This document shows positions 15,210 through 45,300 of a DNA stretch of 64,000 nucleotides, piece after piece; position 1 is the stretch's first letter, and every line of letters begins with the position of its first letter. The DNA is from Methanobrevibacter sp. YE315 (GTDB lineage Archaea; Methanobacteriota; Methanobacteria; Methanobacteriales; Methanobacteriaceae): assembly GCF_001548675.1 (NCBI RefSeq), contig NZ_CP010834.1, forward strand, positions 248,001-312,000, given 5' to 3'. Under the pieces are notes generated by a model that was not told the DNA's origin, ran no database searches, and was given only the letters and a program-made list of their open reading frames with translations. Made by a program: the position numbers and the translations under genes.

Positions 15210-15222
15210 TTTACACTTGAAA
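15210..15222 (-). promoter_or_regulatory. Isolated mini-ORB-like 13-mer
   Basis: TTTACACTTGAAA is identical to the 13-base Orc1/Cdc6 binding repeat I recall for Methanothermobacter thermautotrophicus. Its flank TGCACCTCT also matches the copies at 23751-23771 and 23804-23824, which are in the opposite orientation. Confidence 0.5.
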
Positions 15223-15404: not shown

Positions 15405-18400
15405 TTGAAATCTAATAAAGTCATGATAGTTGGTATTTTTTTACTAGCTATTTTCGCAATTGGGGCTGTCAGTGCAGCCGAGGATATTGACACGACAGAT
15501 AATGTTCTTGCAATTGACTCTGTCGATGAAATTGAAATAACACAGGAAGGCTCTGGTGAGCTTTTATGTTTGGCTGGAGACTCCAGTGGGGAAATTTTAG
15601 AGGAGGATGGAAATTCATATTCTGGTGGAAGTTCCACTGTTGACTCTCACTTTTATGGAACTACAATGACTGAACTATCTAATTTCATAAGACCTGCTGT
15701 TGATGGTGATGTCATTTATTTTGAAAATGATATCACCTCAGATCAAGCTTTTGAAAATACAACTAATGGAATACAAATTAACAAATGCATTACAATTAAT
15801 GGTAATGGGCATACAATTGATTTAAAAGGGTTAACACCGGCATTCTTTATTAAAACAACCAATGTTGTCTTGAATAATCTGACAATTAAAAATGGTCGAG
15901 CTTTCCAGAATGGGGGAGTTATTACATCAAGTAGTGTAGGTTCTTGTACCATAACCAACTGTATTTTTATGGATAATGCTGCGGAAGAACGTGGAGGGGT
16001 CATCTATTTAAATAGTGCCGATTCTTGCAATATAATCAATTCCAATTTTATTAATAATCAGGTATTATCATCCAGTATAGGTTATGGCGGTTCTATTTTT
16101 GCTGTCAATCATATTAATGTAAGAAATTGTACTTTTACCAACAATAAAGGAAATTATGGTGGTGCCATTTATTTAAAAAGCACAGGTGATTTGGCCGGTT
16201 GTAATTTTGTTGGCAACACTGCAGCCGGAAAGGGCTTTGGTGGTGCAATTTATGCTGAAAAATATATAAATTTAAATAATTGTAACTTCAACAACAATGA
16301 CGCAAAATATGGTGGTGCTGTTTATTCAGCAAGCAGCGGTTCATGTGATTTGACCGGTTGTAATTTTGTTGGTAACACTGCAATAGAAGGTGCTGGTGTC
16401 TACAGCTTCAATCGGGCTAATTTAAACAATTGTAATTTCACTGATAATACAATTTCCAATAATGTGGATAATAAGGGTGCTCGTGGTGCTGCTTTCTATG
16501 GTTCAGGTTCTTTTAATAATTGTAACTTTATCAATAATCATGCACAAAGTGATAAGAGCTATGGTGGTGGACTCTACATCAAACAAGATTCCACAATAAT
16601 CAACTGTAATTTCGAGGATAATACTGCAGAAATAAGTGGCGGTGCTGTTTATGCAGGTGTCGGCACTACTTTAGAGATAATTAATTCTAATTTCATTAAT
16701 AATCGTGCTCAAGGTGCTAATGGTTATGGTGGTGCTGTTTTTAGCAATATGACCAATGATTTAATTAGTAATTGTAACTTCACTAATAACTATGCAAAAA
16801 ATACCGGTGGTGCAATTTATTCACCAATTGGGGATTGCAATTTAAACGATTGTAATTTTTATGATAATGTTGCAGAAAATATTGCAGGCGCAATTTATTC
16901 AGTCAATGGTGTTTATGAATTAACTGATTGTGATTTTACCAACAATGCAGCAGAATCCGGTGGTGCTTTTTATGGTGGCGGCACATTAAACAATTGTAAC
17001 TTTACTAGTAATAGTGCTACTGCAAATGATGGCGGTGCTGTTTACAGCCTATTGAATTCCAATATGAATAACTGTATTTTCGTTGGCAATTCTGCAGGCC
17101 GTAACGGTGGTGCTACTTACAACAAGCAAACCTCAAATACAAACAATTGTATCTTTAACAATAATAATGCAGGCCGTAACGGTGGTGCAGCATTCAATGT
17201 TAATGCAAACAATTGTGATTTTGTAAATAATAATGCACAAAGTGATAACAGCGGATATGGAGGCGCGATGTATCAAGGTGATGCATCCAATTGTTATTTT
17301 GTAGATTGTTCCGCAGCCAAAAGAGGCGGTGCAATTGCTAATGGTAATGCACATGATTCAATATTCATAAATTGCGATAATCCATACGGTGTTGTTTATA
17401 ATGGTACTTCTGAAAATTGCATGTTCACTGAATCACCGGTTTTATACTGTCCGGACATTACTGTTGATTATGGTGAGGCAATATCCGTGCCAGTAAGAAT
17501 TCTTGACAAGGATGGCAGTGATGTTAACGGATTGCCTGTTGATGTTAAAGTTTATGAAGGCAATAAGCTGATAGATTCTTTTGCTACAGAATCAGGTTCT
17601 AGTGTAACACTAGACGTTGATGCAGGTAGCTATATTATTGCATTAACTAGCAAATATATTGACCCGATTAATGCTCGCCTTGTTGTTAATATTCCAAAAC
17701 CAAGCCCATTTATTTCAGCACCTCCTGTAACAACCCAATACGGCAAAAACGCAGTCATCACTGTTAATTTATTCAGTGATGTTCCTGGAAATGTAAAAAT
17801 CACCATAAATGGTAATACTCAAAAGGCAAAAATCACAAACGGTGTTGCAACATACACAGTTTCCGGATTAAACTATGGCCTATATCCTGTTGAGATTTCA
17901 TATCTTGGTAACTACAAATATGCTGCTGATTCAATTAACACTACTCTTAAAGTGAATAAAAATTCACCAATAGTCTCAATTGTTGCAAATGATATTGCAT
18001 ACAATGAAAATGCAACAGTAACAGTTAATTTAGCAAAAAATGTGGCTGGAAATGTAAGAATAACTGTAAATGGAGTAACTGAAAAAGTTAAAATTGTAAA
18101 TAAATTAGCATCTGCAACATTCACAGGTTTAAAAGCCGGCACACATGACGTAAAAGTAACATATGCAGGTAATATTAACTATGTTGCTCAAACAAAAACA
18201 GCAACTTTAAAAGTTGTTAAAGGAACTCCTATTATTTCAGCTGATGCTCCTGATGCAGATTATGGTGAAGATGCTGTTATCTCTGTTGCTTTATTTAAAG
18301 ATGTTCCGGGCAATGTAAGAGTTACTGTTAATGGAATTTCCGAAAGGACTAAAATCACAAATGGTGAAGCTACTTATACAGTTTCAGGTCTTAAAACTGG

Positions 18401-18998
18401 ATCTTATGAAGTAACAGTATATTATGCGGGCAATGTTAATTATAATGCACAAACTTTTAAAACTACTTTAAATATTGTTAAAGGAACTCCAATTACTGCA
18501 ATTTCTGTTAATAATATTAATGTTGGGGATACTGCTCAAATTAATGTTTTAACCGCAAAAAATGTCAATGGTAATATAAGAATCACTGTTAATGGAGTAA
18601 CTGAAAGAGTTAGAATCGTAAATGGTGTGGCCACTCTAAATGTAACTGGTCTAAAAGCAGGAACTTATGATGTAACTGCAGTTTATGCGGGTAGTACTTA
18701 TTTCAACTCTCAAACAAAAACTGCAACATTAACTGTAAGCAAAGGTTCTCCAGGCTTGTCATTTACCGCAGTAACAAAAAGTGGTAAAACCACTGTAACT
18801 GCCAAAATTGCTCAAGATGCTCCAGGAAATGTGAAAATCATCGTTGATGGTGTTAATACATACACTGCAAAAATCACAAATGGTGTTGCAACATATGCCA
18901 TTTCAGGTTTAGCAAGTGGAAGCCACACAATCAAAGTAACCTACGGTGGAAACTATAAGTATACTTCACAAAGCAGAGCAAAAACAATAACTGTTTAA
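15405..18998 (+). CDS. Adhesin-like protein: beta-helix followed by five Ig-like repeats
   Basis: A protein of 1197 residues. The signal peptide is MIVGIFLLAIFAIGAVSAAE. Residues 70-680 are a right-handed beta-helix with some 25 coils of the form NCxFxxNxAxxxGGAxY, typical of polymorphic-outer-membrane-like repeats. From about residue 765 to the end there are five Ig-like domains of about 86 residues (GNVxITVNGxxxxxKIxNGxAxYxVSGLxxGxxxVxVxYxGNxxY). There is no C-terminal membrane helix or sorting tail; it ends with the last Ig strand (SRAKTITV). Start is TTG at 15405 behind AGGGAG. Such proteins face the cell surface and are thought to mediate attachment to partners or host. Confidence 0.9.
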   Translation: MKSNKVMIVGIFLLAIFAIGAVSAAEDIDTTDNVLAIDSVDEIEITQEGSGELLCLAGDSSGEILEEDGNSYSGGSSTVDSHFYGTTMTELSNFIRPAVDGDVIYFENDITSDQAFENTTNGIQINKCITINGNGHTIDLKGLTPAFFIKTTNVVLNNLTIKNGRAFQNGGVITSSSVGSCTITNCIFMDNAAEERGGVIYLNSADSCNIINSNFINNQVLSSSIGYGGSIFAVNHINVRNCTFTNNKGNYGGAIYLKSTGDLAGCNFVGNTAAGKGFGGAIYAEKYINLNNCNFNNNDAKYGGAVYSASSGSCDLTGCNFVGNTAIEGAGVYSFNRANLNNCNFTDNTISNNVDNKGARGAAFYGSGSFNNCNFINNHAQSDKSYGGGLYIKQDSTIINCNFEDNTAEISGGAVYAGVGTTLEIINSNFINNRAQGANGYGGAVFSNMTNDLISNCNFTNNYAKNTGGAIYSPIGDCNLNDCNFYDNVAENIAGAIYSVNGVYELTDCDFTNNAAESGGAFYGGGTLNNCNFTSNSATANDGGAVYSLLNSNMNNCIFVGNSAGRNGGATYNKQTSNTNNCIFNNNNAGRNGGAAFNVNANNCDFVNNNAQSDNSGYGGAMYQGDASNCYFVDCSAAKRGGAIANGNAHDSIFINCDNPYGVVYNGTSENCMFTESPVLYCPDITVDYGEAISVPVRILDKDGSDVNGLPVDVKVYEGNKLIDSFATESGSSVTLDVDAGSYIIALTSKYIDPINARLVVNIPKPSPFISAPPVTTQYGKNAVITVNLFSDVPGNVKITINGNTQKAKITNGVATYTVSGLNYGLYPVEISYLGNYKYAADSINTTLKVNKNSPIVSIVANDIAYNENATVTVNLAKNVAGNVRITVNGVTEKVKIVNKLASATFTGLKAGTHDVKVTYAGNINYVAQTKTATLKVVKGTPIISADAPDADYGEDAVISVALFKDVPGNVRVTVNGISERTKITNGEATYTVSGLKTGSYEVTVYYAGNVNYNAQTFKTTLNIVKGTPITAISVNNINVGDTAQINVLTAKNVNGNIRITVNGVTERVRIVNGVATLNVTGLKAGTYDVTAVYAGSTYFNSQTKTATLTVSKGSPGLSFTAVTKSGKTTVTAKIAQDAPGNVKIIVDGVNTYTAKITNGVATYAISGLASGSHTIKVTYGGNYKYTSQSRAKTITV

Positions 18999-19032: not shown

Positions 19033-19086
19033 TCCAAATACATTTAAATCCCATATAAAATAAACTAATTATAAAAGACTTTGAGT

Positions 19087-20025
19087 ATGAGTATAATGGG
19101 TGAAAAATACATTAGAAATAATAGGAACTCCTATAATATCGTTAAGAATTCAAAAATCTATGCTAAAATCACGGCTTTAGATGATGCCATTTTTATAAGG
19201 GACTTATTGATAAAAAAAAATTGGGATTTGAATAAGATTCCAGAAACAGTCAAAAAAGATGATAATTATTTAGTTTTGGCAGTCATTGACGAAAAGCTTC
19301 ATCTTTTGGCTAAGTTCAAATCCAAACCGGACTCTGAAACCATAATAAAACTCACAAAAAACAAAATCAGAAACCCGAACAATTCCAAATATGGTCTGAA
19401 CATCACAAAAGTCTTTGATACCTATGTAATCAAAAAGCAAATCGCATCAGACGAGTATATTTTCGGCTATTATGATAATTTGGCTGATGCACAGTTTGTT
19501 AGAAACTTTCTTCTGGATAACAATTGGAACGTCAATGAATTTGGCGAAATAGAATTCGATGAGGAGACCGACTCATACAAAGTCATAAAAGTCATTGATG
19601 ATAATGTCTATGTTATCGATTCCTATGACTCAAAAGATGAAATTGACTTAAAAAAATCATATGAAAATTTCCTATCCCGGATTTCAAAGCACAAATTCGG
19701 GCTTGCCAGTCAACCGCACCTGGACTTGTTAAAAGATAAAATCCCTGAATTGGAAGAAGAATTTGATGTAAAGACAAAAGATGATGTGTGGTCTTTTGAA
19801 GATGTATCTTCGCCGTTAAATGATATTATTTTCAATTTAACTCCATTTCAGCAGAGCGTATATGATTCAATCGATTCAAACACTTCTTTGGATGAAATTA
19901 AAAAATCAATGATAAGGTACAAGTCTAAAAATTTCGATAAAAAAATCTTAAAGAACATTGATGATTTGATTGAATTGAATCTAATCGAAATGGTTGATGA
20001 TGAGGTTTATAGAAAAACGGATTAG
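19087..20025 (+). CDS. Protein with two AP2-like repeats and a C-terminal winged-helix-like region
   Basis: A protein of 312 residues. Two copies of an approximately 100-residue unit can be aligned, at residues 7-106 and 107-206: each has a basic start with Y-x-I-x-K, then a D-A-x-F-V/I-R-x-x-L-L-x-x-N-W helix (DDAIFIRDLLIKKNWD; ADAQFVRNFLLDNNWN), an acidic loop, a hydrophobic hairpin and K-Y/F-G-L. The pattern recalls AP2-like DNA-binding repeats of methanogens. The last 80 residues (LTPFQQSVYDSID ... LIELNLIEMVDDEVYRK) look like a winged helix. A TATA box near 19056 places the start of transcription close to the ATG at 19087. A DNA-binding role is inferred. Confidence 0.65.
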   Translation: MSIMGEKYIRNNRNSYNIVKNSKIYAKITALDDAIFIRDLLIKKNWDLNKIPETVKKDDNYLVLAVIDEKLHLLAKFKSKPDSETIIKLTKNKIRNPNNSKYGLNITKVFDTYVIKKQIASDEYIFGYYDNLADAQFVRNFLLDNNWNVNEFGEIEFDEETDSYKVIKVIDDNVYVIDSYDSKDEIDLKKSYENFLSRISKHKFGLASQPHLDLLKDKIPELEEEFDVKTKDDVWSFEDVSSPLNDIIFNLTPFQQSVYDSIDSNTSLDEIKKSMIRYKSKNFDKKILKNIDDLIELNLIEMVDDEVYRKTD

Positions 20026-23122: not shown

Positions 23123-23542
23123 CTATTCTTCTTCTTCGCTTTCAGTGGTTGTAAATTCAGGTTCAATATATTCGGATTCGTCGTAGTATTCGTCATTTTG
23201 TGATCCAAGATAACTTTTAACCAAGTCAGTTATGACTAAACCTAAATCTGATAGGGCCTTGTTTGTTTCACTTCCTTTGCTTAAGTTAAGTACGCGAACA
23301 CCTTCGGCATCAGTTCCTTTTTTAGGAATCATTACCATTGTAATAGGTTCTACACCGGCTCCGGCACCTGCTGCATTGCCTCCTTCTTTACCAAAAAGGC
23401 TTTCGCCAGCTCCAAATCCAACTCCCATTCTCACTACAGGAATTAAGATTTTATCTTCGGTTTCAATCGGTTCGCCGATTACATTGTCAACATTAATAAG
23501 TTTATGTAATTCTTCAACAGTTGTTTTAATATTATTTGCCAT
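23123..23542 (-). CDS. YtfJ/GerW-family protein
   Basis: A protein of 139 residues. The family core is clear: VIGEPIETEDKILIPVVRMGVGFGAGE, a glycine-rich loop (GGNAAGAGAGVEPITMVMIPK) and VRVLNLSKG. The C-terminus is acidic. In spore formers GerW is needed for lysozyme resistance and germination; archaeal members have no known role. A GGATGTGA ribosome binding site precedes the ATG. It is the first gene of the three-gene minus-strand group 23542-22283, and the repeat array lies just upstream of its promoter. Confidence 0.9.
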   Translation of the reverse strand: MANNIKTTVEELHKLINVDNVIGEPIETEDKILIPVVRMGVGFGAGESLFGKEGGNAAGAGAGVEPITMVMIPKKGTDAEGVRVLNLSKGSETNKALSDLGLVITDLVKSYLGSQNDEYYDESEYIEPEFTTTESEEEE

Positions 23543-23702: not shown

Positions 23703-24015
23703 AAGACATAAGTTTCAAGTGTAACTTTTTCCTTATAACTTCTTATTTAAGAGGTGCATTTCAAGTGTAACTTTTTTCTTCTAAGTTATAATTCAAAAAT
23801 CAAGAGGTGCATTTCAAGTGTAACTTCTAACTTATAATCAAAATCGGTGTAAAAAATATATTGCTTATAAGTTATACTAAGAAAAAATCCATGTAAAAAA
23901 TACATTACTTATAAGTTATACATAAGAAAATTCATGTAAGAAATATTTTACTTATAAGTTATACATAAGAAAAATAGTGTAATAAATATGTTACTTTTAA
24001 AGTATTACATGATTT
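23703..24015. repeat. Candidate replication origin: mini-ORB-like elements and AT-rich unit array
   Basis: Seven units of about 43-53 bases fill this gap between genes. The first three each carry TTTCAAGTGTAAC (23713-23725, 23759-23771, 23812-23824), whose complement differs by one base from the Methanothermobacter mini-ORB TTTACACTTGAAA; the last two of these are preceded by AAGAGGTGCA. The next four start with variants of GTGTAAAAAAT (about 23847, 23891, 23934, 23977). Six of the seven units, all but the last, contain TATAACTT, AAGTTATA or the close variant AACTTATAA, and the later ones are nearly pure A/T, suitable for unwinding. An orc1/cdc6 gene lies 3.1 kb away. Function as an origin is inferred, not shown. 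Confidence 0.65.
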
Positions 24016-24045
24016 CAAAATTTTAAAAAAAGAAAAAAAATAGAA

Positions 24046-27105: not shown

Positions 27106-27141
27106 TAACAATTTTATAATAGTTTAAATAAAGTGGATAAC

Positions 27142-28251
27142 ATGGGAATTGAAGATATTTTAATGTATGATGAAAGTCTTTTTCAAAATATAAATGCTTT
27201 TGATCCGGATTATGTACCTCCAAACTATAATTTTAGAGATACACAAATGGAAGCTATGGCAATGTCCATAAGGCCGGCTATGAGAGGCGGTCAACCTTCA
27301 AACGCAATTGTTTTAGGTTCACCTGCTACAGGAAAAACAACAGCAATTAAGAAAGTTTTTGAGCTTGTTGAAAAGAATACTGAAAAGGTAGTTTGCGTTT
27401 ATATTAATTGCCAAATCCACACTACCCGTTTTGGAATATTCTCACAAATATTTAAAAAGATGTTTGGACATCTCCCACCAGAAACCGGAGTTCCATTTTC
27501 CAGAATCTATGACCAAATCATGCAAAATCTTCAAAAAAATGAAAAATCACTTGTCATCGCATTGGATGATGTCAATTATCTATTCCAATCTAACAATGCT
27601 AATAAAATATTTTATGACATGTTGAGGGCATATGAATTATATCCAGGTGTCAGGACATCTATTTTTGCAATATTGTCCGATTTGGAATTTAAATATGCTT
27701 TTGACAAGAATGTAAATACCGTATTTATTCCTCAAGAAATAAACTTCCCGCTTTACACCTACTCAGAAATTGAAGATATCTTAAGAGATAGGGTAAAAGC
27801 AGGATTTTTCCCAGGTGTGCTAAGCGATGACATTTTAGAGCAGGTTGCAATGTATACTCATGAAAATGGCGATTTACGTATTGGCATTAATCTTTTAAAA
27901 TCATGCGGCAATATTGCAGAAGCTTCAGCAAGCCGTGAAATCACTCAAGAACATTTTGATGAAGCCGTTGACTCATTAGTTTCCATTAATGTCAGTGAAA
28001 CATTAAGTTTGTTAAGTGATGTCGAAAGGGATCTCTTAAAAATGATTGTTGATTGGGATGGAGTTTGTAAGGCTGGTGAATTGGCTGAAATGTTTAAAGA
28101 AAAAACAAACTCCAGTTATGCTTCTTTTAATAGGACATTGGATAAACTTGAATTTGTAAGGCTTATTGATACCAAATTTACAGGAAAAGGGGTTAGGGGA
28201 AATTCCCGTGAAATTATATTGCGTTTTAACCCCGATGAATACAACATCTAA
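27142..28251 (+). CDS. cdc6: Orc1/Cdc6-type replication initiator
   Basis: A protein of 369 residues with the AAA+ and winged-helix layout of archaeal Orc1/Cdc6. Walker A GSPATGKTT is at 59-67; Walker B reads ALDDVNYLF with D143 and D144, where most family members have D-E. EDILRDRVKAGF and GDLRIGINLLKSCG are the lid region. The C-terminal 90 residues (LLSDVERDLLKMIVDW ... FVRLIDTKFTGKGVRGNSREI) form the DNA-binding winged helix. The ATG at 27142 is chosen because TTTATAAT at 27113 lies about 25 bases upstream; a GTG at 27133 is possible. It is a likely binder of the repeat array at 23.7 kb. Confidence 0.92.
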   Translation: MGIEDILMYDESLFQNINAFDPDYVPPNYNFRDTQMEAMAMSIRPAMRGGQPSNAIVLGSPATGKTTAIKKVFELVEKNTEKVVCVYINCQIHTTRFGIFSQIFKKMFGHLPPETGVPFSRIYDQIMQNLQKNEKSLVIALDDVNYLFQSNNANKIFYDMLRAYELYPGVRTSIFAILSDLEFKYAFDKNVNTVFIPQEINFPLYTYSEIEDILRDRVKAGFFPGVLSDDILEQVAMYTHENGDLRIGINLLKSCGNIAEASASREITQEHFDEAVDSLVSINVSETLSLLSDVERDLLKMIVDWDGVCKAGELAEMFKEKTNSSYASFNRTLDKLEFVRLIDTKFTGKGVRGNSREIILRFNPDEYNI

Positions 28252-28282
28252 TTTTTCCTGTGGGGGAAATTAGTTTCTGTTA

Positions 28283-28321
28283 ACATTAGATTTTTTGCAT
28301 GGTAAGCCTGCAATCTAATGT
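28283..28321 (+). other. Extended stem-loop after orc1/cdc6
   Basis: ACATTAGATT (28283-28292) pairs perfectly with AATCTAATGT (28312-28321). Inside, GCA pairs with TGC and GG with CC around a TAAG loop, with a small T bulge. It lies 31 bases after the cdc6 stop. It may end the transcript or be a structured RNA. Confidence 0.45.
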
Positions 28322-28354
28322 GTAGCAGTAAGGGTTTGGTATTCAAAATCAAAT

Positions 28355-28380
28355 AAATCCATTATATGATGTATGGATTT
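28355..28380. terminator. Hairpin at the end of the small minus-strand gene
   Basis: AAATCCAT (28355-28362) pairs exactly with ATGGATTT (28373-28380); the stop codon of the minus-strand gene lies within it. Confidence 0.4.
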
Positions 28381-28541
28381 TGAGCAGCTACAACAGAAAT
28401 AACAGATAAAAGTAACGCTGCTATAACTGCAAGCATTACCATGCAAGATTGAATATCTAAATTGCTGTACATAATTTCGTCTTTTATACTACTTCTTTTC
28501 CTTAAATCTACTTGTATTGTGGTGTCATTATTTCCGAACAT
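28362..28541 (-). CDS. Small single-span membrane protein
   Basis: A protein of 59 residues from the ATG at 28541 (MFGNNDTTIQVDLRKRSS), behind a GTGATT ribosome binding site. The N-terminal half is polar and the C-terminal half is a membrane segment (MVMLAVIAALLLSVISVVAA). A longer frame from 28631 would overlap the divergent archease gene and is not preferred. No family is recognised. Confidence 0.5.
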   Translation of the reverse strand: MFGNNDTTIQVDLRKRSSIKDEIMYSNLDIQSCMVMLAVIAALLLSVISVVAAQNPYII

Positions 28542-28629
28542 TTTAATCACTATATTTAAAATTGTTAAAAGACTAATATAAAAAAAGAGTAAGAGAGCAT
28601 TTGAAAAGTAATATTTTTGAGGTAAATTC

Positions 28630-29043
28630 ATGAAAAAATTCGAATATTTTGAAGTAACTGCAGATATAGGCTTTAAAGCTTATGGAAAAAACTTAAATGA
28701 AGCTTTTGAAAATGCAGGATTGGCTATTTTTAATATAATATCAAACACGGATGATATTGATGCTACAGATGAAATATCATTTGAAATAACCTCAGAAGAT
28801 AAAGTTTCATTGCTTTATGACTTTCTTGAAGAACTTCTATTTTACCATGAAGTTGAATTCATGTTGTTTTCGGAGTTTCATGTTGAAATCGATGAAGGTT
28901 TGCATCTCAAGGCCACAATAAGAGGGGAAGGGATAGATTGGGACAAGCATGAAAGAAAAACAGAAATCAAAGCAATAACCTTCCATAAAATGAACATAAA
29001 ACAGAACAGCCATGTGGAACTTCAGGCCATAGTTGATTTATAA
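28630..29043 (+). CDS. Archease
   Basis: A protein of 137 residues, the usual size. The start FEYFEVTADIGFKAYGKNLNEAFENAGLAIF, the middle LLYDFLEELLFYHEVEFM and the end IKAITFHKMNI are family signatures, with the acidic metal site D12 in the ADIG motif. Archease activates RtcB by speeding its guanylylation during tRNA splicing and RNA repair. GAGGT at 28619 precedes the ATG. The rtcB gene lies 0.4 kb downstream on the same strand. Confidence 0.94.
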   Translation: MKKFEYFEVTADIGFKAYGKNLNEAFENAGLAIFNIISNTDDIDATDEISFEITSEDKVSLLYDFLEELLFYHEVEFMLFSEFHVEIDEGLHLKATIRGEGIDWDKHERKTEIKAITFHKMNIKQNSHVELQAIVDL

Positions 29044-29077
29044 ACTTATATATAATATATAATACATACATTTTATT

Positions 29078-29398
29078 ATGAAAAGAACTAGGACCGTATC
29101 AAGAACTTTTGAAATGATAATGGGAATTATAGGATCAGTAATCGGAATATTTTCAGGTTCTTTTTTAATATTTTTAGAACATTTTGGACAGATACACACT
29201 CCTTTTTTAGGTTTAGTGGCTATTATGGCTTCCCTTTTAGGAATAGTATCCAGTTATTATGTTAGAACAAAACCGGATGTTGCAGGTGTTGGTTTTATAG
29301 TTGCAACCATGTTTGTCATTGTTGGATCTGCATACATTAACGTGTTGAGTGCAATATTTTTGCTTATTGCAGGAATATCCGCTTTATTTAGAAAATGA
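29078..29398 (+). CDS. DUF4064-like four-helix membrane protein
   Basis: A protein of 106 residues with four hydrophobic helices (MIMGIIGSVIGIFSGSFLIF, GLVAIMASLLGIVSSYYV, GVGFIVATMFVIVGSAYI, LSAIFLLIAGISALF). This layout and the T-R-x-x-E-x-x-x-G-I-I-G start resemble DUF4064. It lies between archease and rtcB with the same strand. A TATA-like TATATAATAC about 25 bases upstream suggests its own leaderless promoter. Function unknown. Confidence 0.72.
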   Translation: MKRTRTVSRTFEMIMGIIGSVIGIFSGSFLIFLEHFGQIHTPFLGLVAIMASLLGIVSSYYVRTKPDVAGVGFIVATMFVIVGSAYINVLSAIFLLIAGISALFRK

Positions 29399-29486
29399 AT
29401 AATTTTTTTTAATCTTTCTAATTTTTACCAAAACCTTATTAAAACACCATTAATAAATACTAATACATAATAATTTTGTGATTTTT

Positions 29487-30935
29487 ATGAGTATTAAAGA
29501 TGAAATTAAAAAAGTTAGAGATAATGTTTATGAGATTCCAGGATCTTTCAATAAGAAAATGAGAGCTTCTGGAAGGCTTTATATAGCTGATGAATATATT
29601 GATGAATTGGAAGATGGGGCTGTTGAGCAAATTGTCAATGTGGCTTGTCTTCCGGGCGTTCAAAGATACTCAATCGGACTTCCCGACATTCACTTTGGGT
29701 ACGGATTCCCAATAGGTGGTGTTGCTGCATTCGCACTAAGAAACGGTATCGTATCACCGGGGGGAGTCGGATTTGATATTAACTGTGGAGTCAGATTGAT
29801 TAAATCTAATTTGACACTTGAAGATATTGAAGGCAAATTGGATGAGCTTACAGAAAAACTGTTTAAAAATATCCCTTCAGGTGTTGGAAGCAAAGGTAAA
29901 ATAAAGCTTAAAGAAAATGAAATCAACGATGTGCTTGATTATGGTGCTGAATGGGCTGTTGAAAACGGTTACGGTTGGAGTGAAGATCTGGAAGTTTTAG
30001 AAGAAAACGGAAGAATGGTTGACGCTGACTCAAGCATAGTATCTGATAAAGCTAAAAAAAGAGGAATTCCTCAATTAGGCTCACTTGGTTCCGGAAATCA
30101 CTTTTTGGAAGTTCAAATTGTTGATGAAATTTACAATGAAGAAGTGGCGGAAGTATTTGGGCTTGAAAAGGGAATGATTGTTATTATGATTCATTCAGGC
30201 TCTAGAGGATGCGGTCACCAGATATGCTCTGATTATTTGAGGGTGATGGATAAGGCTTATAAAAAATACAAAATTAACATTGATGACAGGCAGTTAGCAT
30301 GTGCTCCACTTGATTCTAAAGAAGCTCAAAATTATATACAGGCGATGGCGGCAGCTGCTAATTATGCATGGGCAAACAGACAAATGATGACCCATTGGGT
30401 TCGTGAAACCTTTGAGGAAGTTTTAGGAAAATCCGCAAAGGACATGGAAATGAATATTGTTTATGATGTGGCCCATAATATTGCAAAAATGGAAACTCAT
30501 AAAATCTTTAATCGCGAAGAGGAAGTTTTAGTTCACAGAAAAGGTGCAACACGCGCATTCGGACCTGGAAGGGAAGAAGTACCTGAAAAATACAGGGCCG
30601 TAGGACAGCCTGTCCTGATTCCAGGAACAATGGGAACAGCTTCATACGTATTGCATGGAACAGATGTTGCAATGGAAGAGACCTTCGGTTCAACCGCTCA
30701 CGGTGCAGGAAGGGTATTGTCAAGATCTAAAGCCAAAAAGCAATATGATGCAGACAAGATTACAGACGAATTGGCATCAAAAGGCATTAAAATCAAAGCC
30801 ACAAGCAAACATGTCATTGAAGAGGAAGCTCCTGGCGCTTATAAGGATGTTGACAGTGTAGTCAGAGTATCCGATTCAACAGGCATCGCAAAACTAGTTG
30901 CTAAAGTCAAACCATTATCTGTTTGTAAAGGATGA
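29487..30935 (+). CDS. rtcB: RNA-splicing ligase RtcB
   Basis: A protein of 482 residues without an intein. Metal and catalytic residues of RtcB are in place: D97 and C100 in GFDINCG, the His in GSGNHFLE, the His in [11 protein letters not shown], the His in VYDVAHNIA, and the guanylylated His region [12 protein letters not shown]. It joins 2',3'-cyclic phosphate or 3'-phosphate RNA ends to 5'-OH ends, using GTP and Mn, in tRNA splicing. The ATG at 29487 follows GTGAT at 29478; an upstream TTG is less likely. The phosphorylase gene starts 4 bases after the stop. Confidence 0.97.
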
Positions 30936-33377: not shown

Positions 33378-36300
33378 ATGGGAATTAAAAAAAATATAAT
33401 AATAATAATTTTATTAATATGCATTCTCTTTTCACTTCAATCTGTGGCGGCTGTTGATGTTGCTGATGATTCAGCAGTAGTTGGCTCAACAATAACCTCA
33501 GATTTGAGTGTGAATGCTTTAAATGATACAATTGGTACGTCGACGGAAAACGGAATTGTTAGTCAAAATAACAATCCTTCATTATCACTTCCAGATAATG
33601 ATGAAAGGTTAAGTGAGGGTGAAGGATCGTTTACAGATTTGAAAAATGAAATAACTGGCGTTTCAGACGTCCAATTAACAAGAAATTATACATTCAGTAG
33701 TTCTGATAGTGAGTTAGTTAATGGAATACCTATCTCAGGCACAGTAACAATTACAGGTGTAGGCAATATTGTAATTGATGCAAATAATCAAGCAAGAATA
33801 TTTGATATAATGGACGGAGCTACTGTAACACTTAAAGGAATCACTTTTATTAATGCTAATGCTACTGGAGATGGAGGAGCAATTAATTCCCTAGGTATAT
33901 TACATATTGAAAATTGTACTTTTATTAACAATACTGCAAGTGGCCATGGTGGTGCAATATATTTAGAACATAGTACCGAAAGCTCTATCAAAGGTTCTGA
34001 TTTCACAGGTAATAATGCGGGCCGTAATGGTGGTGCGATAGATTGGCGTGCAGGTTCAACTAATGGTAAAGTAATTGATTCCATATTTACCAATAACACT
34101 GCTAAACGTAGTGGTGGTGCTATACATTGGAGTGGTCATAATGGTACTATTAGTAATTCCAACTTTACTAACAATAAGGCTACTGGTGATGTAATAGATG
34201 ACATCGGTAATGTAACCGGTGGTGGAGATGGTGGTGCTGTACTATGGGTAGGTAGTCATGGTATCATCAAGGATAATTGTAACTTTAATAACAATTATGC
34301 TAAAAACCGTGGTGGAGCAATATTCATACATGGTAACTATACAGAAAACTGTACTAATACAACTATATCAGATTGTATATTTACTAGTAATATTGCCGGT
34401 GTTAATGGTGGTGCAGTAGATTGGTATGAAGGTGCACATGATGGTAATGTATATAACTCCATATTCACCGATAATATAGCTGGATCTAATGGTGGTGCTA
34501 TATTCTGGAGTGGTCATAATGGTGATATATATAATTCCAATTTCACTCATAATATTGCTAATGGTTTAGTTATGGATGATCATGGTAATATAGGTGATGG
34601 TGGTGCAATCATATGGTCTGGTCTAAATGGTACTGTGGTTAATTGTAACTTTGTAGATAATGAGGCTAAGTATAATATTGCTTATAAGACTGGTGGTCGT
34701 GGTGGTGCTGTATACTTACAAAACTGTAGTCACGGTAATTGTATAAATACTACATTTAAGGATTGTCACTTCATTAGTAATATTGCTGGTTTTAATGGTG
34801 GTGCTATTGATTGGCATGAAGGTGCAACTGATGGTTTAGTAGATAATTGTACTTTCATTGACAATGTCGCTAACCGTTCTGGTGGTGCAATATACTGGTT
34901 TGGTGAGAATGGTACTGTATGTAATTCTGTCTTTAAAAACAATACTGCATTAGGTAATGTTTCAGGAAATGACTCCTATGGTAGGATTACTAATGGTGGT
35001 CATGGTGGTGCTATTATGTGGACCGGTTCTAACGGTAACATTTCAAATACTACTTTCACTTTGAACAATGCTTCCCAGAATGGTGGTGCTATCTATATGC
35101 AAGGTAGTATGCGAGATGGTGTTGTTCATGATTGTAGTAATATTACTGTTGACGGCAGCAGGTTCTATGATAATTATGCTGGTTTTAATGGTGGTGCGTT
35201 AGATTGGTATGAAGGCGCTCACGATTCAACACTTTCTAATTCTGAATTTGTTAATAACACTGCTAAAAGATCTGGTGGTGCTGTATATTGGTTCGGTCAT
35301 GATGGTACTATTTTCAATTCCACTTTTGAGAATAACACTGCATTAGGTAATGTTTCTGGAAATGACTCTTATGGTAGGCAAACTAATGGTGGTCATGGTG
35401 GTGCTATTATGTGGACTGGTGCTAATGGTAAGGTTTTAAACAGTACCTTTAGACGTAATAATGCTTCCCAGAATGGTGGTGCTATCTATATGCAAGGTAG
35501 TATGCAAGATGGTGTTGTTCATGATTGTAGTAATATTACTGTTGACGGCAGCAGGTTCTATGATAATTATGCTGGTTTTAATGGTGGTGCGTTAGATTGG
35601 TATGAAGGCGCTCACGATTCAACACTTTCTAATTCTGAATTTGTTAATAACACTGCTAAAAGATCTGGTGGTGCTGTATATTGGTTCGGTCATGATGGTA
35701 CTATTTTCAATTCCACTTTTGAGAATAACACTGCATTAGGTAATGTTTCTGGAAATGACTCTTATGGTAGGCAAACTAATGGTGGTCATGGTGGTGCTAT
35801 TATGTGGACTGGTGCTAATGGTAAGGTTTTAAACAGTACCTTTAGACGTAATAATGCTTCCCAGAATGGTGGTGCTATCTATATGCAAGGTAGTATGCAA
35901 GATGGTGTTGTTCATGATTGTAGTAATATTACTGTTGACGGCAGCAGGTTCTATGATAATTATGCTGGTGTTAATGGTGGTGCGTTAGATTGGTATGAGG
36001 GTTCTCACGATTCAACACTTTCTAATTCTGAATTTGTTAATAACACTGCAGCAACAGGTAATGGAGGATCCGTATTCTGGAATGGTAATAATGGTCAAGT
36101 TATAAATTCATCATTCAACAATAACTATGCTAGATTTGAGGGTGGTGCAGTATACATTGAAGGAAATGACTGTCTATTCGCCAATTCAACATTGGATAGT
36201 AACATTGCAGGAGACGACGGTGGAGCAATATTATGGACAGGTCAACACGGTAAGATGTATAACATAACTGCAAACAACAATAGCGGTATCAGTAAGAGCG

Positions 36301-39300
36301 ATGCTCTGAAAAATTCCCACTCAAAAGGAGGTACCATAATTATTACAGGTTCGGACATGTCTATTGACACACTTGTCGTTACAAACAGTTTCGCTAATGA
36401 AGAGGCAGGAGGAGTATTCCTCACAGGTAACAATGTCAATTTAACAAATATCTACTTCGCCAACTGTTCAGCAAGTATGGGTGGTAGCGCACAAAACAAG
36501 ACAAAGGGTGGAGCAATGGAAATTATTGGAAATAACACCCGTATAATAAATGCTACTATCGACAATTCTAAAGCAGAAAACGGTGGTTCAATTTACTGGT
36601 CAGGTAATGACGGTTATGCTTACAATATTAATGTTACTAACAGTTACTCATCTCTGGATGGTGGAGGATTATTCCTCACAGGTAACAATGCCAATTTAAC
36701 AAATATCTACTTCTCCAACTGTTCAGTAAGTATTGATAGTAGCGCAGAAAACAATACAGGTGGAGCAATGCAAATTATTGGAAATAACACCCGTATAATA
36801 AATGCTGCTATCGACAAGTCTAAAGCAGAACAAGGTGGTTCAATTTACTGGTCAGGTAATGACGGTTATGCTTACAATATTAATGTTACTAACAGTTACT
36901 CATCTCTTGAAGGTGGAGCATTATTCATTTCTGGAGACAATTGTCAAATAAATGCTTCAAAATTCACAGACAACGTTGCAGGAGATGATGGTGGAGCTAT
37001 AAATTGGGAAGGGGATAATGGTGCCATTGATGATAGTATCTTTGAAAATAACAGTGCTACCAGTGCTGGAGGCCATCACAGTAAAGGAGGTACAATTTCT
37101 CTAACTGGTGATAATGTAGATATATCAAACTCTAACTTCACAGGCAGTATCTGTAATAATGACGGTAGGAATACTAATTATGGTGGTACAATATTCATCA
37201 CAGGAAATGATGTGGATATTGAAGGATGTAACTTTAATAACTCTATCGCTGAAGGTTCAGATGGTGGTACAATATATATTATTGGTGACCGCACTGTAGT
37301 TAAAAACTCCAATATCACAGACTCCACTGCAAGAGCAGGAGGGGCAATATATATTCAAGGGGTATATGCATCTATTGTAAATTCATCAATCGCTAACGCT
37401 TCTGCGAAAAACGGAAACGATTATACTGCTACTAACTTAGGTGGTGCAATTTATGTAGAAGGTAATTATGCAACTATTGAAGGTTGTGAATTTGAGAATT
37501 CCTCTGCATATGATGGTGGTATAATTTACTTGGAAGGTAATTACTGTAATGTTAACGGTTCTTCATTTACTGATGGTTATGCATACCAAAATGGAGGTGC
37601 ACTTTATTCCACTGGATCACACTCCAGGGTAACTAATTCTAACTTTACAGATAACCTTGTAAGATTGAATGGAGGAGCTCTTTATTGGTATGGTAATTCT
37701 AACTCTAGAAACAATACCGTTGATGGATGTATATTCACAAATAACACTGCTTATGGATTTACTACTAGTGCAGATTTGACAAGAGGTGGTGGTGCTATTT
37801 ACTGGTCTGAAAATGGAGACAGTGGTACTGTTAAAAATTCCAAATTCTATTATAATTCAGTTCAATCCATTAATAAAAAGAAAGTAGACGGTGGTGCTAT
37901 CTTATGGGATAAAAGTACAAATGCACTTGTTGAAAATTGTACCTTTGTAGGTAATTTCGTCACTACTGATGGTGATGGAGGAGGTACTGGAGCTTCAGCA
38001 GTTTGGGCTCAGGGAGGAGCTATGTATTTAAGACCAAATGGTCTTTATGTTATAAGGAATTGTCTATTTGAGAATTGTTCTTCATCTAAGGAAGCTGGTG
38101 CATTGTATATTCAATCTAATCGTAATTTAGCCGGCCGTATGGTTTTACTTGAGAATTCAACATTTATAAATAATGTTGCTTATGGAAAGGGTAGTAACAG
38201 TAATGGTGGAGGTGCGATTCAAGTCAAACAGGCAAATCATGTAGAATTTTATAATATTACATTTATAAACAATACTGCTAATAAGGGTGGAGCTTTATGT
38301 GTCTATGACTCGGTCACTACTTTTACAGTGAATGGTGCTACTTTCATAGGAAATAAAGCAGAAAAAGGTTCTGCAATTTCCGCATCATCATTTTTCACAT
38401 TAAAAGATGCTGTACTTCTTAATAATACTGCAAATACCACCAAATTCGACTTAACTTTTAATAGAAATGCAGGCAGCATCCACATAGAGATGGAAGGAGC
38501 GGATACTCACTTAAATTCAATGTATGTTAAACATGATGGAAGTAAACCAGAAAAGCAATTTAATATATCTTGTAATAATGTTACATATTGGACCGATAAT
38601 AACATAACCATTGGTAAGACAGCTGTTCAAACTGGCATTATATCTTCTGTAACTGTTGGTTCTGTTCCTGAAGCAGGTATAGCAGTACTAGTTGAAATAT
38701 TTGATGGGGACAATAATAAATTACATGAAGGTGTTTATGCAACAGATGCAAATGGTATAATCGACTTGAATGTTGCAGATATTCTAACCGTACCATATTC
38801 ACTAGATGATATTTATGTGAATGCAAGAATTCCAAATGAAGATTACTATACCCCTGCAGAGGCTACTTCAAGAATCAAAGATGTTAATATTGACGCTTCT
38901 GCATTGGACACCATATTCCATAGAAACACAACAGTCACTGCAAACCTCACTGGTCCGAGCGGTAATATTCTACAAAGTGCAAGAGGTATCATCTCTGTTT
39001 ATATTGATGATGTATTTAAAGGAAACATGACCATTGAAAACGGTAAAGGATCTTTGGAAAACATTCTCACTAATGTTACTGCAGATACATTCTTTGAAGT
39101 TGGCAATCACACAGTATTCTTAAAATACTGGGGTGACGCATACTACGATGAAGTTAACACAACAGTTTCATTAAATATAACTAAAGCACAATCCAATTTA
39201 ACAGTCCAAATCGATGACCTTGGGTATGATCTTTACATGAATTTTACAGTCTTCGATGATTGGGATGACAAATTCTATGGGGATGCTAACGGAACAGCAA

Positions 39301-42300
39301 CCGTTGAGTTTTATACTGAAAGCGATCCAACAACCGTTATTAGATATGTAGATGTTAGAATTGTTAATGGTTTTGCTTCTACAGTGGTTCATGATTTGCT
39401 TCCTAGAAATTACACTATAAAGACAACATATCATGATGACCATAACTATAACAGTTCAGTCAATTTAACCAATTATAGTTTGCCTCAAAAAGAATATGCT
39501 GCAGTTTTCCTTAATGTAAGTGCGTATGACATTATGGTGGATGATACAATTTATATCAATGTCACAATCGTTCCGCCGGAAGGATATGATGTACCGGGTA
39601 ATGTAACTATATATCTTGATAATAAAGCTTATAATTTAGCATTAACTAATGGAACTCACAATGCAACAGCTACATTCAACATATCTAATCTGACTGCAGG
39701 AGTTAAGAAGGTAATCGCATTCTATCCAGGTAGTAAACTTTTAGAACCTGCTATGGGTGAAGCTGATTTCACTGTACATAAATATAACACTACACTTTCA
39801 GCAAATGTTACAAACATTACTATCATTCAAAATGAAATAATCAATATTACCCTTTTAAATGACACTACTGGTGTCGTTTCAGCGATTGTTAATGGAGAAG
39901 AATATTTCGGCAGAATCAAGAACGGTACTGTATCAATTGAACTTCCACAATTGCCTGTCGGGGAATATAATGTAACTCTATACTATGAGGGTGATGATAA
40001 ATATAATAATGTTACTAATTACACAGTATTCTATGTAACTCAAATTGAACCTAATATTACAATTGATGTTGACAATGTAACTTATGGAAATGAAACCATA
40101 ATCACAGTAGTGCTTCCAGATGGCGCTACCGGTAATGTAACAGTCAAAGTCAATGACACTTATTACGTATTTGATACACAAGATCTTGTTGACGGTAAAG
40201 CAATATTACCTGGAGTAATATTCGGTGCTGACAACTACACTGTTGAAGTGACCTACGGTGGAGATAAGAACTATTCACGTAGCGTTGCAAGATCCAAATT
40301 CACAGTATTCAAAGCAACTCCTGAAATGGACATAAATGTTGCAAACATGCTCAACATTACTGTTGAAGATATCAACTATGGTGAAAACGCCAACGTAACT
40401 ATCCATGTTGGTGATGGTGTAACTGGAGAAATCACACTCAGAATCAACGGAACCGATAAGAACATTACATTACCGATTGTTGGCGGTAAAGTCAATTGGA
40501 CTCTTGGCAATTTAGCTGTTGGAAACTATGTAATCGTTGCCAATTACAGCGGCAATGCCAACTTCACAAATGCTACAATATCCACTGACTTCAACGTATT
40601 GCAAATCGGCACTACTTTGGATGTCGATGTACATGACGTCCCAGTATGGGATACAGAATATATAAATATTACAATAAGAGACGCTACTGGAACTATTCTA
40701 ACTAATGCTACCGGTAACGTAACAATTAACATTAATGGTGTAAACCACACCGCTGAAATCAAAGATGGAATTGCAAGATTCAACACCTCTGACTTAACAA
40801 TAGGACATAAGGTCGTATGGGTATTCTATGATGGAGACAATAACCTTACCGGAAACAGGGCAATGGCCGAGTTTTACGTAACCCAAAGAACTCCGTTTGT
40901 CAACGTAACTGCTCAAAACATTACTGTAGGTCAAAACGGAAACATAACCATTAAAGTTCCAACCAATGCAACCGGTTATGTCGTAGTTGAAGTCGTCGGT
41001 GATGATACCTACATCAGATATGTATCAGAAGGCCAGGCTGTAGTATATCCTAAAGACTTGAAAGTAGGAAACTACACAGTAAATGTAACCTACTACGGCG
41101 GAGGACTTGATAACTACACAGTTAACAGTAATCAAACTATGTTCACTGTATCTAAATTGAATGCAACAGTAACTATTGACGTTGATGACATCAATTACAC
41201 TGAAACTGCAGTCATTACCGTAACTGTTCCTGCAGGTGTTGAAGGAAACATCACAATCAAACTCAATGATACTGATAATACAAACATTACACAAACAATT
41301 GTTAATGGAAAAGCAGTATTTGAAGTGCCTGACTTGGCTGCAGGCAATTACACAGTTAATGTAACCTATAATGGAAATGAAGATTACAATATTAACAATA
41401 CTGAATCTGACAAATTTGAAGTTAAAAAGATAGACCCTAACTTACAAATCTACCCACCATCCGCAACTGCTGGTGAAAAAGCTATCATAACAATATTCAT
41501 AAATGATAGAATCGATGGTGAGTATGTAACTATTACAGGTCTTGACAAAGAATATAGATCAGAAATAATGAATGGTGTTGTTACATTCACTACCGATGGT
41601 CCATTGAACTATGAAAACTACACCATGGCTGTAACTTATGACGGTAACCAAAACTTCACTGACAGTACAAAATCATTAACTTTCAGACCGGCTAAGATTT
41701 CTGACTATGAAATAAATGTTACTGGAATGAACATTACAGTCGGAGACCCTGAAATAATAACAGTTACTGTTCCAACTGGAGTAACAAATGTATCCATTTG
41801 GGTAAACGGTACCAAATACACTAATGATTCATTCGTAAACGGTGAAGCTACATTCAACATAACTGGCCTTAAAGAAGGAGTATACACAGTTAACGCTACG
41901 GTTAATGATGCTAACTACACAAGCAAAGTAGCCAATAACATATTCACTGTATCAAAAACCTATCCTTCAATCAACATTACTGTTGTTGATGAAGACGGAA
42001 TTTATGTAAATGACACTGTCAAAGTCATTGTAACAGTTCCTGCTGACGTAACCGAAAACGTAACTATTGAAATCAATGGTATTAAATTCACTAACGTAAC
42101 CGTAAACGGCAATGCAACATTCTACATACCAGAAATAACCTACGGCAATAAGACAGTTGTTGCAACCTATCCTGGTGATGACAAATACAGATTCAACTCA
42201 ACAACCGCTAACTTTACTGTTATTAAAAAGGATATAACAATTAGTGTCAATAATACTACTGTCCCATCCGATATTGTTGCTGGTACTCCGGTAATAATCA

Positions 42301-45300
42301 CTGCTAACTTGAATGAGTCCGTTACTGGTGATGTGATATTTACCATTAATGGCGCTAACTACACTGTACATGTTACAGATTCTAATGTTGCCGCTTATGA
42401 GTACACTCCTGTAAATAATGCTACTCTGACTGTTGTTGCTACCTTCGTTGGCAATGATGAGTATAATAGTAATGTATCTGATCCTCAAGTATTTGAAGTT
42501 GACAGAATTCCAACTGATATCAAGGTAACCGTTAAAACTCCGGTTACTTATGGTGATGATGCTCTCATTACTGTCGAGTTGAATGAAACTATAAATACTA
42601 CTGTTAAATTGACTGTTGATGGCAAAGAATATGATGTTGCTATAATCAATGGTAAAGGCGGATTAAATGCTACCGGATTGAATAGCGGAGATCATGAAGT
42701 CAATGTAACCTATGTTGGTGACGATAAGTATTGCGATAGCAAAAACTCTACAAGATTCACTGTAGATAATGCTACTTTAGTTGCTAATGGCACTGCTTTA
42801 AATGTCACTGTTGAGCAGAATACTACATTTATCATCAATGTCACTGATGACTTCAAAGGAAACGTTTCAATAAAAGTTGGAGACAAAGTATTGTACAACG
42901 GCACTGTTCAAACATTAATCTATGCTGATAAATTGCCTGCCGGTGATAAAACTGCTACAGTTGTCTTCTATGGTGACAGCAATTATGATGTATTGACATT
43001 AAATGATGTTGAATTCACTGTTTCAAGAGTCGCTCCTTCCATTAATATGACTATTGCTGATGTGACTTATCCTAATAATGCTACTGCAGTTATTAATGTA
43101 AGCAATGCTGCTAACGGCACTGTCAGAGTCACCGTTAAGCTCAAAGGCACTAATAAAACCAAAGTCTTTAACGGCACTGTATCTAACGGTGTTGCCCGTG
43201 TTGACTTATCTGGTTTAGCAGGCGGCGATTATGAGGCCACTGCTGAGTTCATCACTAGCGATGATTATAATGGCAATGCTACTGCTGACGATGAATTCAC
43301 TGTTTTACCTAATAACTCATTAATTACTATTACTAAAGATAGGAATGGAACTTATAAAGTTGGCGAAGATGTAGAAATTAAATTCACTACAACCAACTCT
43401 ACTGGACTTCTCATTATATTTATTAATGGAAATCAATATAAAAATCCTCTTTCACCTAACCCTGGAAATCATGAAATTTGCATAGAAGGATTAGCTGAAG
43501 GTAATTATACCATTACTGCTGTTTTAGAGGGTGATCAAAACTACACAGGATATACTACATCCACTACAATCAAAGTAGTTAAAAACAATGTGACAATTAC
43601 TGTTAATGATACTACTGTGCCTGCAACTATTTATGTTGGCAGTCCGGTAAACTTCACTGCTAACTTGAATGAGTCAGTTACCGGTGTCGTGGTATTCACA
43701 ATTAATGGTGCTAACTACACTGTACATATTACAAATGCTACTGCTGCTACTTTTGAGTACACTCCGGTTAATAATGATACTATAACTGTTGTTGCTACAT
43801 TCATGGGCAATGATAAGTATAATAGTAATGTATCTGCTCCAAAACAGTTCAACGTTAACAGAATTCCTTCATTCATCAATGTAACTGTATCTGATGGAGG
43901 AATTATCGCTAACGGCACTGATGTGGACATATTCATCGATGGTCCAAGCGACATAACTGGAAATGTAACCGTAATCGTATGGGATAAGATGAGAAATGTA
44001 AACAAAACATACACTGTTTATGTCAATGGTGGAGAAGGCATATTGCACCTTAAAGCTCCTGCCATTGGTAATTATACTGTAAATGCAACATATCTTGAAA
44101 ACAGGAAATACCTTGAAAGTAAAAATTTCACAGTATTTGAAATTTATGATACTGAAAAAGTACTTGAAATTGTTTCAGATGATATATCAGTATTTGATAA
44201 TGAGATAGTATATGTCCATGTGGATGGAGATCAAACAGGCAACAATTTAACAGTCATCATTACCAATGCTGATGGTGAAGTAATCAGGAATGAAAGCGTA
44301 ATCTTTAACCATTACATTTCCCAGTTCAACTTCAGTTCCGCTCAATGGAAATTACCGCTATTAGATGCGGGTCAATACAATGTAACAGCAATCTACATTG
44401 AGCATGCAGGACCTAGAACATTCATACATAAAGGAAACAACAGCTTTTTAGTATACAAAGTAGCTTCTGAAATCACAATCAAGGAAATCCAAAACATCAC
44501 TGTAGGTCAAAATGTCACAATCGAACTGGAATTGACTCCTGGCGCTACAGGAAACATCAGCGTATTCGTAAACGGCATTGAACATAAGACAACTGCCGAT
44601 AACCTTACAATCATTATTCCTAACTTGGGTGCTGATGTATATGTCGTAGATGCATTCTACCATGGAGATAAAAATTATAATGCATCCAATGACACTTCAT
44701 CATTCAGAGTGGACAAAAACAATGTTCCTTTAAGCATCGACATAGCCAACCTTGGAGATGTCGTGCAAATCAACGTGACTGTAGGAAACAACGCAACAGG
44801 TCAAATCTTGCTTGACATAGAAGACAACCACTACTATGCAAACATCACAGACGGTGTTGCACAGTTCAACATAACAGGTCTTAAAGCAGGTAAACATAAT
44901 GTGACTGCAAGGTATGTTGAAAACGATAAATATTATGGCAATACAACAAAGTCAAGCTTTACCATATCAAAATATCAACCTGAATTCACAATCAACGGAA
45001 CAGATATTGACTTTGGTAATGCTGAATTAATTACTATTGAGACTAAAGATGATATTACCAGCTTAGTGGAAGTTGAAGTAAACGGTAGAAATTACACAAC
45101 ATTCATCAAAAATGGTAAAGGTAACTTAACATTAAATGACCTTGCAGCTGGAGATTATAATATTACATTATACTTCCCTGCTAACGATAAATATGAGGCT
45201 GCAACCGCTAATGGTTCATTCAAAGTAAGTCAAATTACTCCAGACATCAACGTTGTTGTTCAAAACATTACTTACGGTGAGGTTGAAACTATTACTGTTC

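Follow-up and report, generated by a model that had tools for sequence, protein, structure and literature searches.

A 21-base site standing by itself in the chromosome of Methanobrevibacter sp. YE315 is by its sequence an origin-recognition box (ORB), at which binding of Orc1/Cdc6 is predicted, and it belongs to a small set of lone ORBs found at fixed chromosome places in Methanobrevibacter. It lies in the window analyzed here, a 64,000-base stretch comprising bases 248001-312000 of the 2,273,296-base genome (Table 1). The explanation that we prefer, and to which as a whole we give an even chance, is that the site is a full-length ORB outside any origin that would serve initiator titration by Orc1/Cdc6.

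Table 1 Features of the window that bear on the lone ORB (window coordinates)
Feature	Position	Strand	Remark
Lone ORB AGAGGTGCATTTCAAGTGTAA	15211..15231	-	Exact 21-base identity with two array copies
Adhesin-like gene, Big_3_5 and beta-helix domains	15405..18998	+	Between the lone site and the 314-aa ORF
314-aa ORF, conserved neighbor of the lone site	19081..20025	+	Used to fetch the loci of relatives
Spore_YtfJ-family gene	23123..23542	-	Adjoins the array
Array ORB copy 1	23704..23724	+	Degenerate before the core
Array ORB copy 2	23750..23770	+	Identical to the lone site
Array ORB copy 3	23803..23823	+	Identical to the lone site
Four AT-rich direct repeats, 43-44 bases (family D1)	23840..24018		Right of the array
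Second Orc1/Cdc6 gene cdc6-2, 372 aa	27133..28251	+	TIGR02928 252.7 bits, cut-off 181.3

Sequence of the lone site and its copies in the genome

The published mini-ORB of the Methanothermobacter thermautotrophicus oriC has 13 bases. A sequence-only reading of the window had reported a perfect 13-mer at 15210-15222 in opposite orientation to an array near 23.7 kb, and both statements were borne out, TTTACACTTGAAA being present there on the plus strand with no mismatches. The same reading had given 22 bases shared with two array copies apart from one terminal base. The long match with two copies held, but its exact length is 21 contiguous bases and the query that had been printed has 20 letters. 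The partners are array copies 2 and 3, which read GTTACACTTGAAA, the first base of the 13-mer being the only difference. When up to two mismatches were allowed, 7 copies of the 13-mer were found in the 64-kb window versus 6.7 expected, which is not above chance. Hence, the significance of the lone site comes from the 21-base identity rather than from the 13-mer. From base composition such a 21-mer is expected 5e-8 times per window and 1.8e-6 times per genome, in agreement with the earlier judgment that a match of this length is unlikely by chance. Compared with the ORBs and mini-ORBs of Methanobacteriales oriC regions, the lone site is the same word as the oriC boxes here and in relatives, but it is single, lies 222 kb from oriC and has 21 conserved bases instead of 13. 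The clustering of boxes that marks an origin is absent around it, the nearest box being 8.5 kb away.

A model of oriC boxes was trained on 104 distinct boxes beside the oriC-flanking DUF2299 gene of relatives (17 loci). Under this model the lone ORB scored 30.8 out of a maximum of 30.8 and was, letter for letter, the log-odds consensus given in Table 1. As the training boxes were picked by their core, the consensus match is an independent test in the left nine bases only, and by simple majority letters two of these nine differ from the lone ORB. Being the consensus of a model built from oriC boxes only, the lone site is a perfect full-length ORB, and the proposal that it is by sequence an initiator-type site is supported. 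The genome has two Orc1/Cdc6 genes. With array copies 2 and 3 taken as one, seven strong sites off the origin were scored; five of them reached at least 29.1, versus two of the five oriC boxes, which would be expected if binding off the origin were no weaker than at oriC.

The genome contains 17 exact copies of the core TTTCAAGTGTAA versus 1.0 expected by composition, many of them sharing the bases AGAGGT(G/A)(C/T)A ahead of the core. Exact TGCATTTCAAGTGTAA occurs five times, once each at 41.3, 263.2 (the lone site) and 624.4 kb and twice in the array (271.8 kb). With a genome profile (R1) built from 11 sites, the lone ORB left out, the lone ORB was the top-ranked site of the genome (27.3 bits, E 8e-6). 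Twelve sites were strong (21 bits or more), all within 30-625 kb of the 2.27 Mb: four at oriC (41.26-41.50 kb), two array copies (271.7-271.8 kb) and six single sites, all on the minus strand, at 30.3, 51.1, 77.8, 263.2 (the lone site), 586.9 and 624.4 kb. The next site had 17.6 bits (43.6 kb) and was followed by weaker ones, of which some core-only sites may be chance matches. The genome-wide search that had been suggested thus returned a handful of sites and not a dispersed repeat, but the expected clustering near 23.7 kb of the window failed, the strong sites grouping instead around 41.3 kb of the genome.

A scan of genome contigs for the 20-base motif gave 81 stretches, whose titles name Methanobrevibacter, Methanosphaera, Candidatus Methanovirga or Methanobacteriaceae, and once merely an archaeon. 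In one genome (G057) five profile matches with identical scores of 19.4 bits on contigs C4, C5, C7 and C9 look like a small dispersed repeat of that genome. A separate observation is that a stop codon lies at most about 40 bases before four of the six lone ORBs (L017, L020, L023 and L024, at 30, 78, 587 and 624 kb), of which two are oriented against and two with the direction of the preceding gene.

The main origin and the array in the window

The main origin is at 41.3 kb of the genome, outside the window and far from the lone site. The cdc6-1 gene lies there at 39.75-40.82 kb (TIGR02928, 401.7 bits), adjoined by boxes on the plus strand at 41.15-41.33 kb and on the minus strand at 41.43-41.50 kb that flank an AT-rich stretch. 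Total GC skew was sampled in 36 segments. Left of 41.38 kb, 12 of the 13 segments had negative values; on the right, as far as 1.04 Mb, 19 of 23 had positive values, and at 1.18 Mb the sign was negative once more. Total skew is confounded by gene strand; intergenic skew was negative in 11 of 13 segments on the left and positive in 17 of 23 on the right. In the same 36 segments GC3 skew lacked the origin pattern. The M. ruminantium genome paper likewise places oriC upstream of cdc6-1 and describes a second gene, cdc6-2 (PMC2812497).

Given the skew change, cdc6-1 and the inverted boxes at 41.3 kb, the array of the window is ruled out as the main origin. The sequence-only reading had taken the array for an origin, and what survives of that view is a locus with cdc6-2, AT-rich repeats and conservation that is a candidate for a second origin or an ORB-rich control locus. 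The array, flanked by the Spore_YtfJ gene and an aminotransferase gene, combines several ORBs with AT-rich DNA and a nearby orc1/cdc6 gene, as origins do. The AT-rich direct repeats, which are a possible unwinding element, have similar counterparts beside the array in relatives. The cdc6-2 gene is 3.3 kb from the array, and its product has a Cdc6_lid match, is 26% identical to Cdc6-1 and matches solved archaeal Cdc6/Orc1 proteins. A count of one Cdc6 gene, made from the Cdc6_C domain, was overturned by the TIGR02928 match to cdc6-2. Orthologues of cdc6-2 at over 60% identity were present in 19 fetched loci. The array is also kept in relatives, with 90 sites in 32 fetched loci (some genomes represented twice), usually as three or more boxes, whose linkers are often alike (for example CTTTTCACTTATAACTTATA).

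GC skew does not change sign at the array, being positive on both sides, and gives no sign that the array fires often. Inverted ORBs around the AT-rich DNA are likewise absent, all boxes pointing one way both here and in relatives (90/90). Origin prediction should be wary of taking any group of ORBs next to a cdc6 gene for the main origin. In structure the array is a composite repeat (window 23704-24018; L141-L145, L152, L154 and L157) in which ORBs alternate with a linker containing a ACTTATAA(G/C)TTATA-type element, and AT-rich repeats with ATGTAAAAAATATATTA then follow.

Conservation of the lone sites

The 314-aa ORF, which matched no Pfam family above cut-off, served as the anchor in relatives. 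A good match to it (E below 1e-70) was present in 33 of the 49 genomes of the genus, our own included; the other 16, of which nine had weaker matches only and seven had none, were excluded from the count. The lone box was found in 19 of the 33, always in the same orientation (G048 and G051 being counted through loci L131 and L100). It was not found in nine, in which 5.7-19 kb of upstream sequence was searched, and in the remaining five less than 5 kb of upstream sequence was covered.

The position of the box relative to the 314-aa gene ranged from inside the gene (G018, G046 and G005) through distances of 45-84 bases to about 18 kb away (G048), with eight genomes having it 45-140 bases upstream, and the DNA in between was variable among genomes. 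In our genome the distance is 3.85 kb, mostly filled by the adhesin gene. As the box is kept while its neighbors change, it is older than the adhesin gene that is its present neighbor. The lone site is very likely an island of conservation that selection has kept amid changing surroundings. The adhesin gene had been placed 180 bases downstream of the site; it is indeed close by, with a measured distance of 173 bases. Its proposed control by the site fared worse. The variable intervening DNA argues against adhesin control, and an adhesin operator was rejected, since the site in relatives lies directly upstream of the 314-aa ORF, within it or far from it. Four 314-aa orthologues (G002, G048, G013 and G017; L168, L169, L170 and L172) have one in-frame TAA, and hence some members of the genus may be losing this neighbor to decay.

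The loci of the lone site at -11 kb were fetched by the neighboring amidase gene and not by the motif. Of the 30 loci, 29 had the box, with its orientation to the amidase gene unchanged throughout, and none of the 30 had it when the sequence was read backward as a control. Pairwise identity (29 rows) was 0.90 over the 21 bases versus 0.35-0.63 in the flanks; most loci of the 587, 624 and 78 kb classes had been retrieved with the motif itself, which leaves the -11 kb class as the one free of bias in this comparison. No figure is drawn from the "lone" class, in which 12 of 13 rows were correct and row L153 was an array site.

In four genomes of another family (G019, G027, G028 and G029) orthologous genes also flank a lone box, whose place differs from those seen in Methanobrevibacter and which in three of the four is 99-101 kb from the genome's own oriC. 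This other-family ORB (L225, L226, L227 and L231) has a 399-aa gene on one side and one of about 910 aa on the other, and in three of the four a second, weaker box is found 89-96 bases from it. In some relatives (G008 and G009) a lone site is about 950-1090 kb from oriC, and thus proximity to the origin is not strict.

Possible roles of the lone ORBs

The titration that we prefer can be divided into four steps. First, there is little doubt, from the sequence, that the word of the lone site is the one repeated at oriC. Second, as the word repeats at oriC, we infer that the lone site would in good probability be bound by the initiator Orc1/Cdc6, probably Cdc6-1. Third, comparison of genomes makes it highly probable that selection has preserved the site as the DNA around it changed. 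Fourth, and here we would put the chance at somewhat below even, the lone ORBs together with the cdc6-2-linked array may hold initiator away from oriC. By a similarly hesitant estimate, their capacity could double when a fork copies the mostly origin-side sites, and this could buffer or limit re-initiation. Initiator-type boxes outside the origin, as expected of a titration locus, are present, and a conserved off-origin word suggests an initiator having putative parking places or jobs outside the origin. Counting against titration are the uniform orientation, which titration does not need, the nine of 33 genomes in which no site was found in the 5.7-19 kb searched and the far sites of G008 and G009. 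The lone sites are few, and their number may not suffice for titrating much initiator. A broader reading, which we hold only tentatively, is that the conserved, polar, genome-scale set of single ORBs reflects use of Orc1/Cdc6 off the origin for dosage control or organization of the origin domain, with the cdc6-2-linked array as a hub in Methanobrevibacter and with another locus in order-level relatives.

The orientation and span of the sites bear on the alternative that the lone ORBs are parS-like landmarks for chromosome organization or segregation, at which bound initiator or a partner protein folds or moves the origin-side domain. Orientation was scored in a frame that has cdc6-1 left of oriC and on the minus strand, and for sites on contigs joined to oriC. 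The distinct lone loci were minus in nine of nine and the array plus, giving two-sided p values of 0.004 (9/9) and, with the array, 0.02 (9/10), both post hoc and from few loci. Sites under about 17 bits were excluded from this count and some of them are contrary: in G000 the sites at 16293 (16.2 bits) and 171291 (11.9 bits) are plus, and G009 2516798 and G031:C9 76343 are contrary after the frame was turned. The common orientation would suit a landmark, as would the confinement of the strong sites to one part of the chromosome, all seven non-oriC loci lying at most 583 kb from oriC (p about 0.009 if uniform, again post hoc). However, the -11 kb site on the left arm is on the same strand, and so the orientation is not mirrored about oriC, and some relatives have far sites. 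We consider a landmark role unlikely, but it is the strongest of the alternatives.

Somewhat less likely still is that the array, the AT-rich repeats and cdc6-2 make up a dormant or conditional oriC2 to which the lone site belongs as an outlying arm. The closeness of these elements, the conserved orientation of the array and the invariably opposite orientation of the lone site, in relatives as well as here, fit such an arm. Against it, skew is positive on either side of the array, the array boxes all run one way, unlike the inverted oriC boxes, the lone site is 5-23 kb off and points outward, and similar lone sites exist without a nearby array.

An operator at which Orc1/Cdc6 controls an adjacent gene, like the DNA-damage regulator Orc1-2 of Sulfolobales, is improbable. 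Orc1 orthologues can serve as transcription regulators (PMC9738581), and the eight genomes with the box shortly upstream of the 314-aa gene would agree with such a role. A constant place at one promoter is nevertheless absent, the box lying within the 314-aa gene in some genomes and up to 18 kb from it in others and the downstream gene here being an adhesin, and other lone sites stand just past gene ends. A chance match or functionless dispersed repeat, toward which the chance-level count of the two-mismatch 13-mer in the window and the weak core-only sites might point, has only the slightest probability and was rejected on the 21 exact bases, the conserved positions with diverged flanks and the few copies, around which the unrelated flanks show no mobile element.

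To return to titration, known systems offer comparisons. oriC2D of Haloarcula hispanica is ORB-rich, lacks origin activity and restrains oriC2, likely by titration of Cdc6E (PMC3936714). It shares with the present case ORBs outside an origin, a group of ORBs close to a cdc6 gene and a proposed titration, but its 11 ORBs lie directly downstream of cdc6E (PMC3936714), whereas here single boxes are spread over about 600 kb together with one array. Thermococcales have an ORB and a mini-ORB inside the DP1 gene (PMC2643942), which are likewise outside the canonical intergenic origin, but in a cdc6-linked replication gene, whereas the boxes here are at unrelated, distant genes. If titration holds, the lone ORBs also resemble E. 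coli datA as an initiator-binding locus away from the origin (PMC4010727, PMC3936714), although datA is one cluster of boxes for the bacterial DnaA and the boxes here are of the Orc1/Cdc6 type and mostly single.

Among titles and abstract openings on Methanobrevibacter or archaeal origins, ORBs, Cdc6 and titration, none describes conserved ORBs standing alone in genomes of this order; an earlier mention may exist in the primary work on M. thermautotrophicus. The papers searched gave nothing for the bare 13-mer, nor for thermautotrophicus with "13 bp". Genus-wide lone ORBs far from origins would imply a function of Orc1/Cdc6 away from the origin, and since the conserved sites are few and well defined, such a role can be tested. 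To our knowledge, the limits on re-initiation in archaea with one main origin are poorly understood.

Two further observations concern other genes of the window. The archease and RtcB RNA-ligase genes that follow cdc6-2 (window 27133-30935) are adjacent to one another in many relatives. Window positions 33378-50876 on the plus strand are a single ORF of 5832 aa, which, judging from its length and its neighborhood, may encode a giant surface protein.
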